Shown here: in pieces, positions 1,727 through 21,280 of the stretch
How positions within the stretch are numbered: position 1 is the stretch's first letter
Layout: each line of letters opens with the position of its first letter
IMG/VR virus record: IMGVR_UViG_3300020578_006482
Coordinates: 1-22,234 of that record
Length of the DNA: 22,234 nt
Origin: a virus
Reading direction: 5' to 3' (one strand)
Position numbers and translations under genes: made by a program
The notes under the pieces: generated by a model
What the model was told of the DNA's origin: nothing
The model's input: only the letters and a program-made list of their open reading frames with translations
Databases searched by the model: none

Positions 1727-2041
1727 TTATTTTTTACGCTTCAAAGTCCATGGATATGCTTCTTCCACCCACCTGCGGGTGGCCCTGCGCTTGGCCAGCA
1801 TGGCCTGCTTGCGTGCTTCTCTGCGCTTGGCGCTGCGTGGGGTAAAAGTTTCTCGCTCGCGCATCTCCTCGAACACCCTGTTCTCCTTCATCATGCGCTT
1901 GATCTTTCTGTATGCCTTGATTGCGTCACCACCCGGTGGCACATCCACGTAGTAGCCTCGGAAGCGTCGCTCCCTGTTACCATCCCTGCGATCGTCGGAC
2001 CGCATAGTGTTATTGTATATTTTGTTTGCTATGTTTTTCAT
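1727..2041 (-). CDS. rpsU: Ribosomal protein bS21, long phage form
   Basis: Small-subunit ribosomal protein that sits near the 3' end of 16S rRNA, where the anti-Shine-Dalgarno sequence lies. Residues about 38-90 ([19 protein letters not shown], then [29 protein letters not shown]) match the bS21 core. The protein has 104 residues against about 70 in bacteria: there is an arginine-rich N-terminal extension ([14 protein letters not shown]) and a basic tail ending KRKK. The chosen ATG lies inside the 3' end of clpX (32-base overlap). A TTG one codon earlier and a later ATG at 2005, just past the clpX stop, are alternatives. bS21 is among the ribosomal proteins most often found in phages; it probably joins host ribosomes and biases initiation. 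Confidence 0.88.
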
Positions 2042-3263
2042 CAACCTTGTTTTTAAATATTAGCACAGGATCCGCTCCTGCGTCAATGCAGTTCTCTGTG
2101 ATCTCTACCTTGATCACGCCCTTATTGCGCATTTCGTGTGCATCAAATTGATAGGGCAACAGGGTTGTGTCCAGTATGCTCTTCAATCCTCGTGCATTGG
2201 TTCCCAGTTCTCGTGCTTTTTTGGCAATGGCCAATTTGGCTCCCTTGGTCAGGCTGAGTTCTATATCATCCAAACCAAATAGGTATTGGTACTGCTTGAC
2301 CAAGCTGTTCTTGGGTTCCGTCAGCACGCTGACCAATTGCAGCTCGCTTAGGTTGTTCACATGCGTGACCATGGAAAACCTGCCCACGAACTCGGGTATC
2401 ATGCCATATTTGATTAGATCCTCGGGCTTGACTTCGGACAGAAAACTATTGCCTTCCTTCCTGCCTATCTCGGCACCAAATCCCATGCCGCCAGAGTGTT
2501 TCCGCTCTAGCTGCTTCTCCAGGTCAGTGAAAGCACCACCCACTATGAACAGTATGTTGCGTGTTTCAATCTCAACCATATTGCCATCCGGGTGCTTCCT
2601 GCCGCCGTGCGGAGGCACGCGGCACAGTGTGCCCTCCACTATTTTCAATAGTCCCTGCTGCACTCCCTCGCCAGAAACGTCTCGGGTGACGCTCACGCCC
2701 TCGCTCCTCTTGGCTATCTTGTCTATCTCGTCTATGAACACTATGCCCTTCTCTGTCATCTCCTTGTCGCCCTTGGCCGCGTTGTACAGCTTGCTGATCA
2801 CGTTCTCCACGTCATCGCCCACGTAGCCCGACTCTGTGAGGCTGGTGGCGTCGCTGATGGCGAATGGCACGCTGAGGTATTTGGCTATGGTCCTGGCCAG
2901 CAGCGTCTTGCCGGATCCCGTGGCGCCCAATATCAATACGTTGCTTTTCTCCAGTTCAAAATCTTCCGGCGGCATCATGATGCGCTTGTAGTGATTGCTC
3001 ACTGCCACGCTCATCACTGTCTTGGCATGGTCCTGCCCCACCACGTAGTCATCCAAGAATTCCTTTATCTTGACAGGGTTGAGCAGCTCGCCGCTTTTGA
3101 CCTTTTCTTTCTTGATCTTGACGTTGTCTTCCTCCAGTATCTCGTTGCATAGATGTATGCACTCGTTGCAGATGGACACCTTGTTGGCTCCCACTATCAT
3201 CTTGGTGACGTCTTTCCTGCTTTTGCTGCAGAACGAGCACGTGAGGTTTTCTTCGCCGCTCAT
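2010..3263 (-). CDS. clpX: ATP-dependent unfoldase ClpX
   Basis: AAA+ unfoldase that threads proteins into ClpP or remodels complexes. Seen in order: an N-terminal zinc-binding domain with C9, C12, C32 and C35; Walker A GATGSGKT (113-120); pore loop GYVG (146-149); Walker B with DEID (178-181); the RKH loop (222-224); and a sensor-2 region TNARGL. Its 417 residues equal the usual bacterial length. The ClpP-docking tripeptide, normally IGF, reads MGF (260-262), so docking to host ClpP is still plausible. No clpP is in the window, so it must use host ClpP or act alone. The start is one base after the stop of the preceding gene with no visible ribosome-binding site, which implies translational coupling. 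Confidence 0.96.
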
Positions 3264-18437: not shown

Positions 18438-18986
18438 TCATTGCTTTACCAAAAGATAATCCATGTTTCGCGGTTGATATGCTCCCAGGCAGGTATAACC
18501 CATGGATCGCAACATTTCAACAGCATCCAGGTTGCCTCTGTTTTGCTCCACGATTATTACTGGCCATGATCTCTCTATGGTTTGCATTGAACCCTTGACA
18601 GCTTTGGTCTCGAATCCCTCCACGTCGTATTTTATCAGTCCAACCTGGGAGATATTGAAACTGTCCAGGGTCCTGATAGGCACCATAACAGTGCCTCGCT
18701 CCTTGATCCTGCCAACTCTGGTGCTGTTGGTGTAGGTGGTCCTTTCGCTATCCCCGATGCCCACCACTGTGTAGATATACTTGTGCATGCTGGACACGTG
18801 CCGTTGGAATTCCTTTGTCTTGTCTCTGAAGTCAAAACAATGTATCTTTTTGAAATCAGACTCCAGGTTCATCGCAAATTGTCCCTGTCTCGCTCCCACG
18901 TCTATGGCAGCGGTGAAATTTCTGATGTAAGGCCTTGCCCATTGATAAACTTCTCGGCAGTGAGCTATCTTGCTATGATCGGCCAC
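18438..18986 (-). CDS. FkbM-family methyltransferase
   Basis: SAM-dependent methyltransferase, 182 residues. The SAM loop is DVGARQGQFA (29-38). RTLDSF (105-110) and LIKYDVEGFETKAVKGS (117-133) are the diagnostic FkbM motifs. Family members are usually O-methyltransferases acting on sugars or natural products; a nucleic-acid or nucleotide target has not been shown. The start codon is GTG, overlapping the end of the CTP-synthase-like gene by 14 bases; no earlier start fits. It is the last gene of the four-gene operon. Confidence 0.88.
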   Translation of the reverse strand: MADHSKIAHCREVYQWARPYIRNFTAAIDVGARQGQFAMNLESDFKKIHCFDFRDKTKEFQRHVSSMHKYIYTVVGIGDSERTTYTNSTRVGRIKERGTVMVPIRTLDSFNISQVGLIKYDVEGFETKAVKGSMQTIERSWPVIIVEQNRGNLDAVEMLRSMGYTCLGAYQPRNMDYLLVKQ

Positions 18987-19617
18987 GATATATGGATCGC
19001 GCCAGTTTCTTGCCGCAGTCTCCCAGCCCGTTGATGTGCCACACTATCCTTTGTCTCGGCACGCCGGTGAACAGGGCTATCTTTTTCAGCTCATCCTCGC
19101 CTAGTTCTTTGTCACTCTTGAGGCACAGAGCGAAGGGCATGATGCCCATACGCATCAGTTCCTTCACAGAATGCTGCACGGGCTTGGTCTTGATCTCGCC
19201 TGCGGCTCTAAGATAGGGCACAGGAACATACATCACGATCCTGACATTTTCTTTGAGGGTCATCTCCCGCACGGCCTCTATGGCCAATTGGTTCTCTAAG
19301 TCGCCCACGTTGCCGCCTATCACTGTGACCGTGTTATTGGCCCGCGTCTCCACGATCCAATTCCTGATCTCCTCTGTGATATGTGGAGTCACCTGCACCG
19401 TTCCTCCATTGTATCGACCCATCCGCTCCTTTTCCAGCACCTCTGCGATGATGTGTCCCACTGTCTTGTATCCTGCCGTGATCTTCTTGCTGACGTTGAG
19501 GCAGGGATCTAGATACTTGTATTCTGCCTTGCCACTGCATGATTTCTGTATTGCTTTTGCCAGCTCCACTTTGTCCACTGCGGAGTGTACCCCGTTCAAT
19601 ATGATTGTGTGGATCAT
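18973..19617 (-). CDS. Truncated CTP-synthase-like protein (UTP-site domain only)
   Basis: Clearly related to the N-terminal amidoligase domain of CTP synthase: KYLDPCLNV (34-42), LEKERMGRYNGGTVQVTPHI (61-80), IGGNVGDLEN (100-109), GEIKTKPVQHSVKEL (140-154) and KIALFTGVP (179-187) line up in order with PyrG. It has only 214 residues against about 545. The whole glutaminase domain is absent. About 35-45 residues after LDP-NV, which hold a catalytic Mg2+ aspartate, are deleted. The second Mg2+ ligand (Glu before IGG) is Val here, and the P-loop is degraded (HSAVDK in place of SSLGKG). The motifs lining the UTP/CTP site survive. CTP synthesis is therefore unlikely; nucleotide sensing, interference with host CTP synthase, or a new chemistry are possible. 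Confidence 0.85.
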   Translation of the reverse strand: MIHTIILNGVHSAVDKVELAKAIQKSCSGKAEYKYLDPCLNVSKKITAGYKTVGHIIAEVLEKERMGRYNGGTVQVTPHITEEIRNWIVETRANNTVTVIGGNVGDLENQLAIEAVREMTLKENVRIVMYVPVPYLRAAGEIKTKPVQHSVKELMRMGIMPFALCLKSDKELGEDELKKIALFTGVPRQRIVWHINGLGDCGKKLARSIYRGRS

Positions 19618-20177
19618 GCTTGTATTGTATTATCTTTTATAGAATTGTCAATGCCCAGCATTCGGAAATGATCTTCTATGCTCCATGTGCCTAGGTCGAT
19701 GATCTCTCCTCGCAAATTCTTGATCTGTTTGGTAAATCCCGCCAATTTATATCTCTTGAAAGGATGTTCCCAAGTGGCATTGTATTGCCACTCTCCTTCC
19801 AGTGTGTGTTTGTCACAGTCGGCGATCATGCACAAGGGCATGTGTATGGCCTCCATGGCAGTGATGTGATCTTCTAGATAGGCCTGCAGTATCTTGTTTT
19901 GTGGTATTGGATGCTCCAGATGGGCCTTGCCATCCGTGTACCCTTCGGCGGTGTAGTGTGCAGGTCCCGGACATCTTTCTTTCTGCACTTCTCTGAGATA
20001 TCTCTGCAGGAAATAATAAAATTTACCTTTGACCTCTTTGTCAACGTTGGTGCTCAAAAGATCATTCTTGAATCTATCCAGCGCAGCACACTCCGCTGCC
20101 AGCGACACCTTGCTGGCGGATCGGAACTGGACCCGACCCACGAGAGCCTGATCCAGTTTGCGAAATCGTTCCAGCAT
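19614..20177 (-). CDS. Unknown 187-aa protein of the ParB/CTPS-like operon
   Basis: I do not recognise the family. The N-terminal half is helical (KGKFYYFLQRYLREVQKE). The centre has a His/Cys-rich stretch: ERCPGPAHYTAEGY, AHLEHPIPQNKILQAYL, MPLCMIADCDKHTL. The spaced His and Cys could bind metal; HLEHPIP is faintly like HNH-type motifs but lacks the rest. It is coupled to the ParB-fold gene before it (TGATG) and to the CTP-synthase-like gene after it (ATGA), so the three products are made together. Confidence 0.75.
   Translation of the reverse strand: MLERFRKLDQALVGRVQFRSASKVSLAAECAALDRFKNDLLSTNVDKEVKGKFYYFLQRYLREVQKERCPGPAHYTAEGYTDGKAHLEHPIPQNKILQAYLEDHITAMEAIHMPLCMIADCDKHTLEGEWQYNATWEHPFKRYKLAGFTKQIKNLRGEIIDLGTWSIEDHFRMLGIDNSIKDNTIQA
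19624..19651 (-). promoter_or_regulatory. Sigma70-type promoter, leaderless, CTP-synthase-like gene
   Basis: TTGACA (19651-19646), a 16-base spacer and TACAAT (19629-19624); six bases (ACAAGC) then ATG. It lies inside the 3' end of the 187-aa gene, so the CTP-synthase-like protein and methyltransferase can also be made without the first two genes of the operon. Confidence 0.8.
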
Positions 20178-21280
20178 CAGGCCGCTCTCTTGATGAATGG
20201 CTTGAATTCCGAACAGATGTCTCCCGTCATTATTCCCATAGACACCTTGGGCTCATGAGGGGGATTCCACATGTTGTCCTTGTGCGCCTGCACTATGAAC
20301 ACTTCTCTCATCAGTGTGCTCATGGCCACTGGAGCGTCCCAAGATGTGCCTCGGGTGTGCTGCCACTGTGCCTTGGCTGCTGTGTGTATGCCCTGTGCGT
20401 TGAAGCCACATACCTTGGTGAGGGCTTCCAATATGAGGTCTATCCAATTTTCTGGCAAGAACTTCACTGCGCCATCTTCCTTGGCCAGAGCATACATCTT
20501 GACCAATCCTATGTACAGGCCTTGGTTGATCTCTCCCCCCTGCTCTTCTCCATAGTATTTCTTCACGCTGAGTAATATTTTTTTAAGCGTCTCTAAATCT
20601 CCCGTCATTTCAAGTCCCTTGTAGGCGTAGTCAAAATGTGAGAAGTAGTGTTTGTTGGGTCCGCATTTGCCTGACGACTTTCTTACTCGTTTTGGTTCGA
20701 GATCTATGGCACATTCCTTGAACAATGTGTCCACGAGATAGGCATTCTTGACTCTGGGATGGTTCCTGTCCCCCGTGCCATTCACGTCATTGTGCCATCT
20801 GTAGATCAATCCCCTGTGTATCTCTTCTGTGCCTGCTTTCAATATGCCAGTGTCATTGAGTATCTCGAACGCCACCGCGTCAAATGATTGCTCCTTGGTC
20901 TCAACCCAGGTCAATGGCACGCAAGTGAACCCCATAACCGACAGGGCCACCGCGGTGTGTTGACCATTGAACAGATACCATGAGTCTCCTCTCTTGACTG
21001 ACGAGCCTGGTTGCACCACCCTGGGATCAAATTTCTCGCAGATCCTTAACACATGATTGTCTCTGAGATCTCTCTGGATGTTGTAATCACAGTATATCCT
21101 ATCTAGAGGAACCTGTTCCACTCCACGTGGCAACACCATCTCTGGATCCTTTTGCAAGTTCTGCCATCTGGCCCTTGCTTCTTTTAGTCTTGTTTTGAAA
21201 TTAGGGATATCTCCTGACTCCCCTGCTTTGTGGAACTCTTCAACCACTTGGCTGAGAGCTTTTATTTTGTCCGTAGACAT
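20177..21280 (-). CDS. ParB-fold phage protein
   Basis: A 367-residue protein with a ParB/Srx-type N-terminal domain at about residues 54-120: VEQVPLDRIYCDYNIQRDLR, then a helix, VVQPGSSVKRGDSWYLFNGQ and HTAVALSVMG. The usual G(E/H)RR-type signature reads NGQHTAVAL, so the arginines tied to CTP binding in ParB are missing. The remaining 240 residues (KRVRKSSGKCGPNKHYFSHF, NQGLYIGLVKMYALAKE, TAAKAQWQHTRG) are unfamiliar. The ribosome-binding site AAAGGAG precedes the ATG. The long leader begins with a hairpin. It leads the four-gene operon with the CTP-synthase-like protein. It may bind DNA or nucleotide, or act as a ParB-type nuclease. Confidence 0.75.
   Translation of the reverse strand: MSTDKIKALSQVVEEFHKAGESGDIPNFKTRLKEARARWQNLQKDPEMVLPRGVEQVPLDRIYCDYNIQRDLRDNHVLRICEKFDPRVVQPGSSVKRGDSWYLFNGQHTAVALSVMGFTCVPLTWVETKEQSFDAVAFEILNDTGILKAGTEEIHRGLIYRWHNDVNGTGDRNHPRVKNAYLVDTLFKECAIDLEPKRVRKSSGKCGPNKHYFSHFDYAYKGLEMTGDLETLKKILLSVKKYYGEEQGGEINQGLYIGLVKMYALAKEDGAVKFLPENWIDLILEALTKVCGFNAQGIHTAAKAQWQHTRGTSWDAPVAMSTLMREVFIVQAHKDNMWNPPHEPKVSMGIMTGDICSEFKPFIKRAA

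Follow-up and report, generated by a model that had tools for sequence, protein, structure and literature searches.

The window, that is, the whole stretch of 22,234 nucleotides analysed here, encodes on its minus strand a protein of 214 residues, hereafter mini-PyrG (Table 1). This open reading frame had been proposed in an earlier sequence-only reading of the same DNA, and it holds up, with stops interrupting the plus strand across the interval. A ParB-like gene, a gene for a 187-residue protein and mini-PyrG follow one another in that order, joined by ATGA overlaps.

Table 1. Mini-PyrG, its sequence features and the adjoining genes (positions in the window; residue names with three-letter codes follow the E. 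coli CTP synthase)
Feature	Position	Strand	Remarks
ParB/Srx-like (DUF6551-like) protein, 367 aa	20177..21280	-	travels with the 187-aa gene
Upstream gene, 187 aa, LEHPIPQN motif	19614..20177	-	no family match; overlaps mini-PyrG
Mini-PyrG, 214-aa CTP-synthase amidoligase-domain pseudoenzyme (best reading)	18973..19617	-	CTP_synth_N, Foldseek, 12 homologous contigs
Degenerate P-loop LNGVHSAVDKV, residues 7-17	19567..19599	-	PyrG has TGGVVSSLGKG; only Gly11, Ser14 and Lys18 equivalents retained
Deletion junction after LDPCLNV, residues 42-50	19468..19494	-	~35-42 residues, with His57 and Mg2+ ligand Asp72, removed
TVQVTPHI, residues 73-80	19378..19401	-	nucleotide-site Gln114, His118
VIGGNVGDLEN, residues 99-109	19291..19323	-	without Glu140; Asp147, Glu149 retained
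GEIKTKPVQH, residues 140-149	19171..19200	-	triphosphate contacts Lys187, Thr188, Lys189, Gln192 retained
KIALF, residues 179-183	19069..19083	-	Lys223, Phe227 retained; Phe/Tyr across family
Downstream FkbM-type methyltransferase	18438..18986	-	overlaps end of mini-PyrG gene

Mini-PyrG has the amidoligase domain of CTP synthase (PyrG) both in sequence and in predicted fold. The Pfam model CTP_synth_N matches residues 51-194 (E 4.8e-39, 134.8 bits against a cut-off of 26.1), the top PDB sequence matches are CTP synthases (E 1.4e-31), and every PyrG motif quoted in the sequence-only reading is present in the order given there. Structure prediction, which that reading had recommended, yielded an AlphaFold model (pLDDT 72, with poorly predicted stretches at residues 38-55 and 71-79) whose top Foldseek matches in the PDB are again CTP synthases (probability 1.00, E ~5e-15, TM ~0.67-0.71 on the query). 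The accompanying rmsd of ~9 A probably stems from the deletion together with these poorly predicted stretches, and the predicted fold is PyrG-like in a model of moderate quality only. Identity to full-length PyrG is 25% over residues 1-50, 44-45% over residues 51-192 and 10% over residues 193-214, the ~45% identity to cellular PyrG in the central segment being not notably host-like. Mini-PyrG shares the amidoligase fold and pyrimidine-triphosphate pocket with PyrG (PF06418 plus PF00117; TIGR00337, NF003792), but it has 214 rather than ~545 residues, has no glutaminase, lacks Asp72, Glu140, Lys40, His57, the P-loop glycines and Arg211, and falls far short of both curated full-length equivalog scores (147.8 versus 308 and 134.9 versus 462.75 bits). 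The absence of the glutaminase, already claimed from the sequence, is seen in the end of the protein at residue 214 and in the lack of any PF00117 match in the 13 records carrying mini-PyrG, which are contig fragments (positive controls, 14 of 14). A second PF06418 match was likewise absent from these fragments, and we rejected a split enzyme with its missing halves encoded elsewhere in the records; a full PyrG may yet lie outside the recovered parts of these phage genomes.

To map residues, ten mini-PyrG copies were aligned with 34 full-length PyrG proteins (from Pseudomonadota genomes, Salmonella, one Acinetobacter record and one megaphage) and numbered after the E. coli enzyme. The pyrimidine-nucleotide site is retained at 14 of 15 positions: Ser14, Asp42, Gln114, His118, Asp147, Glu149, Glu155, Arg158, Lys187, Thr188, Lys189, Gln192 and Lys223 are invariant among the mini-PyrG copies, Phe227 is Phe or Tyr, and the sole change is Thr144 to Asn. 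By contrast, only Gly11, Lys18 and Gly143 are kept in all 10 copies among the 12 residues of the ATP, catalytic and ammonia-gate set, with Ser15, Leu16, Gly17, Gly19, Lys40, His57, Asp72, Glu140 and Arg211 lost or changed. For His118, Arg158, Gln192, Lys223, Phe227 and Arg211, assignment to these sites follows what is generally known about E. coli PyrG. The difference between the two sets (Fisher p = 0.0008) is descriptive because the site lists were assembled partly from PMC8325340 and partly from such general knowledge. These counts bear out the selective survival of the pyrimidine-nucleotide face that had been noticed from the sequence. In the fly enzyme, Lys16, Lys38, Asp70 and Glu145 contact ATP in UTP phosphorylation and are equivalent to Lys18, Lys40, Asp72 and Glu140 of E. 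coli (PMC8325340), so that three of these four catalytic residues are gone from mini-PyrG.

The individual losses largely follow the sequence-only reading as well. Asp72 falls inside the deleted segment, which had been said to contain one Mg2+ ligand, and the P-loop is indeed eroded, Gly17 being replaced by Asp and Gly19 and Ser15 also lost while Lys18 is retained as K16 of mini-PyrG. The further claim that the other ligand, a Glu, had become Val stands in part: no acid occupies the position of Glu140, but Val99 is its counterpart only in an ungapped comparison, MAFFT placing a two-residue gap there. The loss of Lys40, the ammonia-gate His57 and Arg211 and the retention of Asp42 had not been remarked on in that reading. 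A further group of residues, H11, Y35, C39, N103, W193 and H194 of mini-PyrG, is invariant in the family and differs from PyrG.

Protein and motif scans of IMG/VR recovered mini-PyrG homologues in 12 further viral contigs, so the same architecture does recur in this viral database, a kind of collection in which the sequence-only reading had advised looking for the deletion; extra motif scans added no further members. The copies fall into lineage A (ten contigs including the window, 78-86% identity to the window protein), lineage B (L024 and L064, 59-62%) and lineage C (L063, 56%). The ten aligned copies have 211-229 residues and all share the deletion (10/10), and the open reading frame is intact in 12 of the 13 contigs, the remaining one being cut by the contig end. 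In a phylogenetic tree the mini-PyrG copies form a single clade (support 1.0); judged from alignment and tree, mini-PyrG derives from PyrG as one clade. Pairwise dN/dS is 0.023-0.106 for the unsaturated pairs (dS < 1), and mini-PyrG is maintained by strong purifying selection. Decay to a pseudogene in relatives, a doubt raised at the outset, is contradicted by these ratios and by the presence of the gene in three deep lineages. Mini-PyrG therefore combines lost catalytic residues with ongoing purifying selection, as a pseudoenzyme does. The viral nature of lineages A and C is backed by phage-family matches; that of lineage B is less firm, its contig also carrying several cellular-type metabolic genes.

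At the sensitivities used, the short form of CTP synthase was found in none of GenBank phages, BFVD or the PDB, and the statement that no phage protein of this kind had been described agrees with our searches of BFVD, PHROGs, GenBank phages and the literature. It was also absent from 200 Pseudomonadota genomes, where 187 genomes yielded a single match apiece, almost always within an open frame as long as PyrG. Plasmid sequences among the best matches listed were annotated as CTP synthase or unannotated and included no short form, and the exact GVHSA-DKV loop pattern returned chance matches only when one genome per species (GTDB) was searched. A cellular origin of the short form was rejected on the grounds of these chance matches and of the PyrG-length frames in Pseudomonadota. 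Virus-encoded relatives with the same domain do exist as the full-length CTP synthases of large viruses (PHROG 28378; megaphage LR756511; Marseillevirus LCMAC103). The megaphage protein (L055) is, unlike mini-PyrG, a complete two-domain enzyme with catalytic residues and lies outside the mini-PyrG clade, and that of Marseillevirus LCMAC103 has 552 residues as against 214.

The neighbourhood of mini-PyrG varies. The trio with the ParB-like and 187-residue genes occurs also in three relatives (L002, L003, L007) and, reordered, in L008, while in four others (L004, L005, L009, L015) a glycosyltransferase-like gene replaces the pair directly upstream. The FkbM-type methyltransferase is missing after mini-PyrG in several relatives. 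Neither the ParB-like nor the 187-residue gene was found near mini-PyrG in lineages B and C, where it lies beside dnaK and a T4-endonuclease-V homologue (lineage B) or on a T4-like contig that also carries uvsX and encodes a DnaB-like helicase (lineage C). Three lineages with unrelated neighbours imply that mini-PyrG acts without fixed neighbours, and an obligate partnership with the pair was rejected on the grounds of its replacement and absence in relatives. No PADLOC match linked the mini-PyrG locus to known phage defence.

Having lost the glutaminase half, the ammonia gate, both Mg2+ ligands, Lys40 and the adenine/P-loop contacts while retaining nearly all CTP/UTP-pocket residues, those of CTP feedback included, mini-PyrG is best read as a phage-borne pseudoenzyme derived from the CTP synthase amidoligase half, which probably senses a nucleotide or interferes with the host enzyme rather than making CTP. 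PyrG chemistry would not be expected to yield CTP in this protein. It would instead bind CTP or UTP, and more probably CTP, since Lys40 is lost whereas Glu155 and other feedback residues are retained. Since the PyrG UTP pocket is built from three subunits (PMC4521081), oligomerisation is probable, and mini-PyrG may function as an oligomer built on the tetramer core known from PyrG, either alone or with host PyrG. Polymerisation of E. coli CTP synthase is driven by CTP and blocked by the substitution E155K (PMC4126345), and a role for CTP in driving assembly and polymerisation has also been reported elsewhere (PMC9138612). Filament contacts of the fly enzyme lie in the glutaminase domain (PMC9138612), and a mini subunit could therefore cap or alter filaments. 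Fly and human CTP synthases with altered N-termini join and disrupt wild-type filaments (PMC5405848). Among these, Drosophila CTPsynB and A20R resemble mini-PyrG in having an altered N-terminal amidoligase region and affect the wild-type enzyme via mixed assemblies, but they are a eukaryotic isoform and engineered mutants that retain the glutaminase half, not phage genes, and the analogy is mechanistic only. A phage protein, gp64 of mycobacteriophage Giles, is reported to contact host CTP synthase in a biochemically unverified yeast two-hybrid result (PMC5705681), for which no homology to mini-PyrG is claimed. We tentatively propose, with a probability of about 0.4, that mini-PyrG binds CTP or UTP, oligomerises, and joins, caps or locks host PyrG so as to shift host CTP synthesis. 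During infection it would be a CTP-holding dead subunit in host PyrG assemblies, the shift in host CTP synthesis by the mixed assembly being the least certain step. The retained P-loop lysine, the invariant family-specific residues, the moderate quality of the model and an identity to cellular PyrG of only ~45% weigh against this proposal. It is possible, if doubtful, that in some T4-like phages and relatives the CTP-loaded dead subunit enters the host tetramer or filament and thereby resets CTP feedback.

A self-contained sensor or sponge, in which homo-oligomers bind CTP in the pocket between subunits and either signal to phage functions or buffer nucleotide for them, with no contact to host PyrG, is somewhat unlikely. 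One protein carries both sides of the three-subunit pocket, so that a homotetramer could complete its sites, and mini-PyrG adjoins different genes in each lineage; however, there is no fused or fixed partner domain to read out a signal, and a sponge would require very high expression. Less likely still is a new enzyme whose pocket holds CTP, UTP or dCTP while H11, K16, K34, Y35, C39, W193 and H194 catalyse a reaction other than ATP-driven amination. Six of these residues (H11, K34, Y35, C39, W193, H194) are invariant in the three lineages and differ from PyrG, and K16 is the retained P-loop Lys18; such family-specific residues and the P-loop lysine would be needless in a mere binder and could point to a new activity. 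Against this, none of the established Mg2+ ligands remains, the linked genes hint at no substrate, and no such activity has been described. The new ligase that the sequence-only reading had entertained is disfavoured as far as it would use ATP, since each of the three lineages has its ATP and Mg2+ sites taken apart.

We consider it very improbable that mini-PyrG belongs to a module with the ParB-like/187-residue pair, perhaps a split nuclease whose nucleotide-binding subunit is ParB-like, for which it would supply or sense the pyrimidine nucleotide. The persistence of the trio in two diverged variants and two gene orders (the window, L002, L003 and L007 versus L008) and the weak resemblance of the ParB-like protein to DUF6551/GmrSD_N are consistent with such a module, but not the substitution of the pair in the four relatives with a glycosyltransferase-like gene or the lack of both partners nearby in lineages B and C. 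An ammonia-dependent CTP synthase, reduced but still active, would account for the intact substrate pocket and is yet harder to credit, as the ATP-contacting Lys40, Asp72 and Glu140 (PMC8325340), the P-loop glycines and Arg211 are all missing. A truncated metabolic enzyme also invites the view of an auxiliary metabolic gene decaying towards loss, or of an assembly artefact; we regard pseudogene and assembly error as ruled out by dN/dS (0.02-0.11) and by recurrence of the same deletion in three deep lineages, with the frame intact in 12/13 contigs.

CTP synthase is universal and feedback-controlled, and its filaments are still poorly understood. Mini-PyrG is a natural amidoligase-only form in which the CTP half of the active site is kept without the ATP half, which shows that the two halves are separable in evolution. 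Its small size makes it a convenient protein in which to test CTP sensing and assembly in isolation. Should host PyrG be its target, mini-PyrG would represent an undescribed phage route to steering host nucleotide pools; the dead-subunit reading, if true, would mean phage nucleotide control in which a pared-down version of the enzyme serves as the regulator.

Several observations concern the surrounding sequence. The ParB/Srx-like and 187-residue genes co-travel in the window (19614-21280) and in L008 (8910-10004 and 10633-11193), and the pair could be a split GmrSD-like nuclease, the model of the 187-residue protein being too poor (pLDDT 55) to bear on this. The lineage B contig IMGVR_UViG_3300009103_001286 (L026, L029, L048, L064) carries genes for porphobilinogen deaminase, uroporphyrinogen decarboxylase, coproporphyrinogen oxidase and ferrochelatase, an aminotransferase resembling 5-aminolevulinate synthase, and SufB, NadA, DnaK and the T4-endonuclease-V homologue; this is a large phage encoding much of a heme pathway, or else the contig is misclassed. 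G+C content is 47% in the window and 33-39% in relatives, which suggests a different host or lineage. The window also encodes a ClpX-like ATPase (2010-3263; its translation reads as ClpX, with PHROG ATPase matches) and, between 10212 and 17115, cargo unusual in a phage, namely BKACE, an MFS transporter, an aldehyde dehydrogenase and an open reading frame that looks in translation like a short-chain dehydrogenase.
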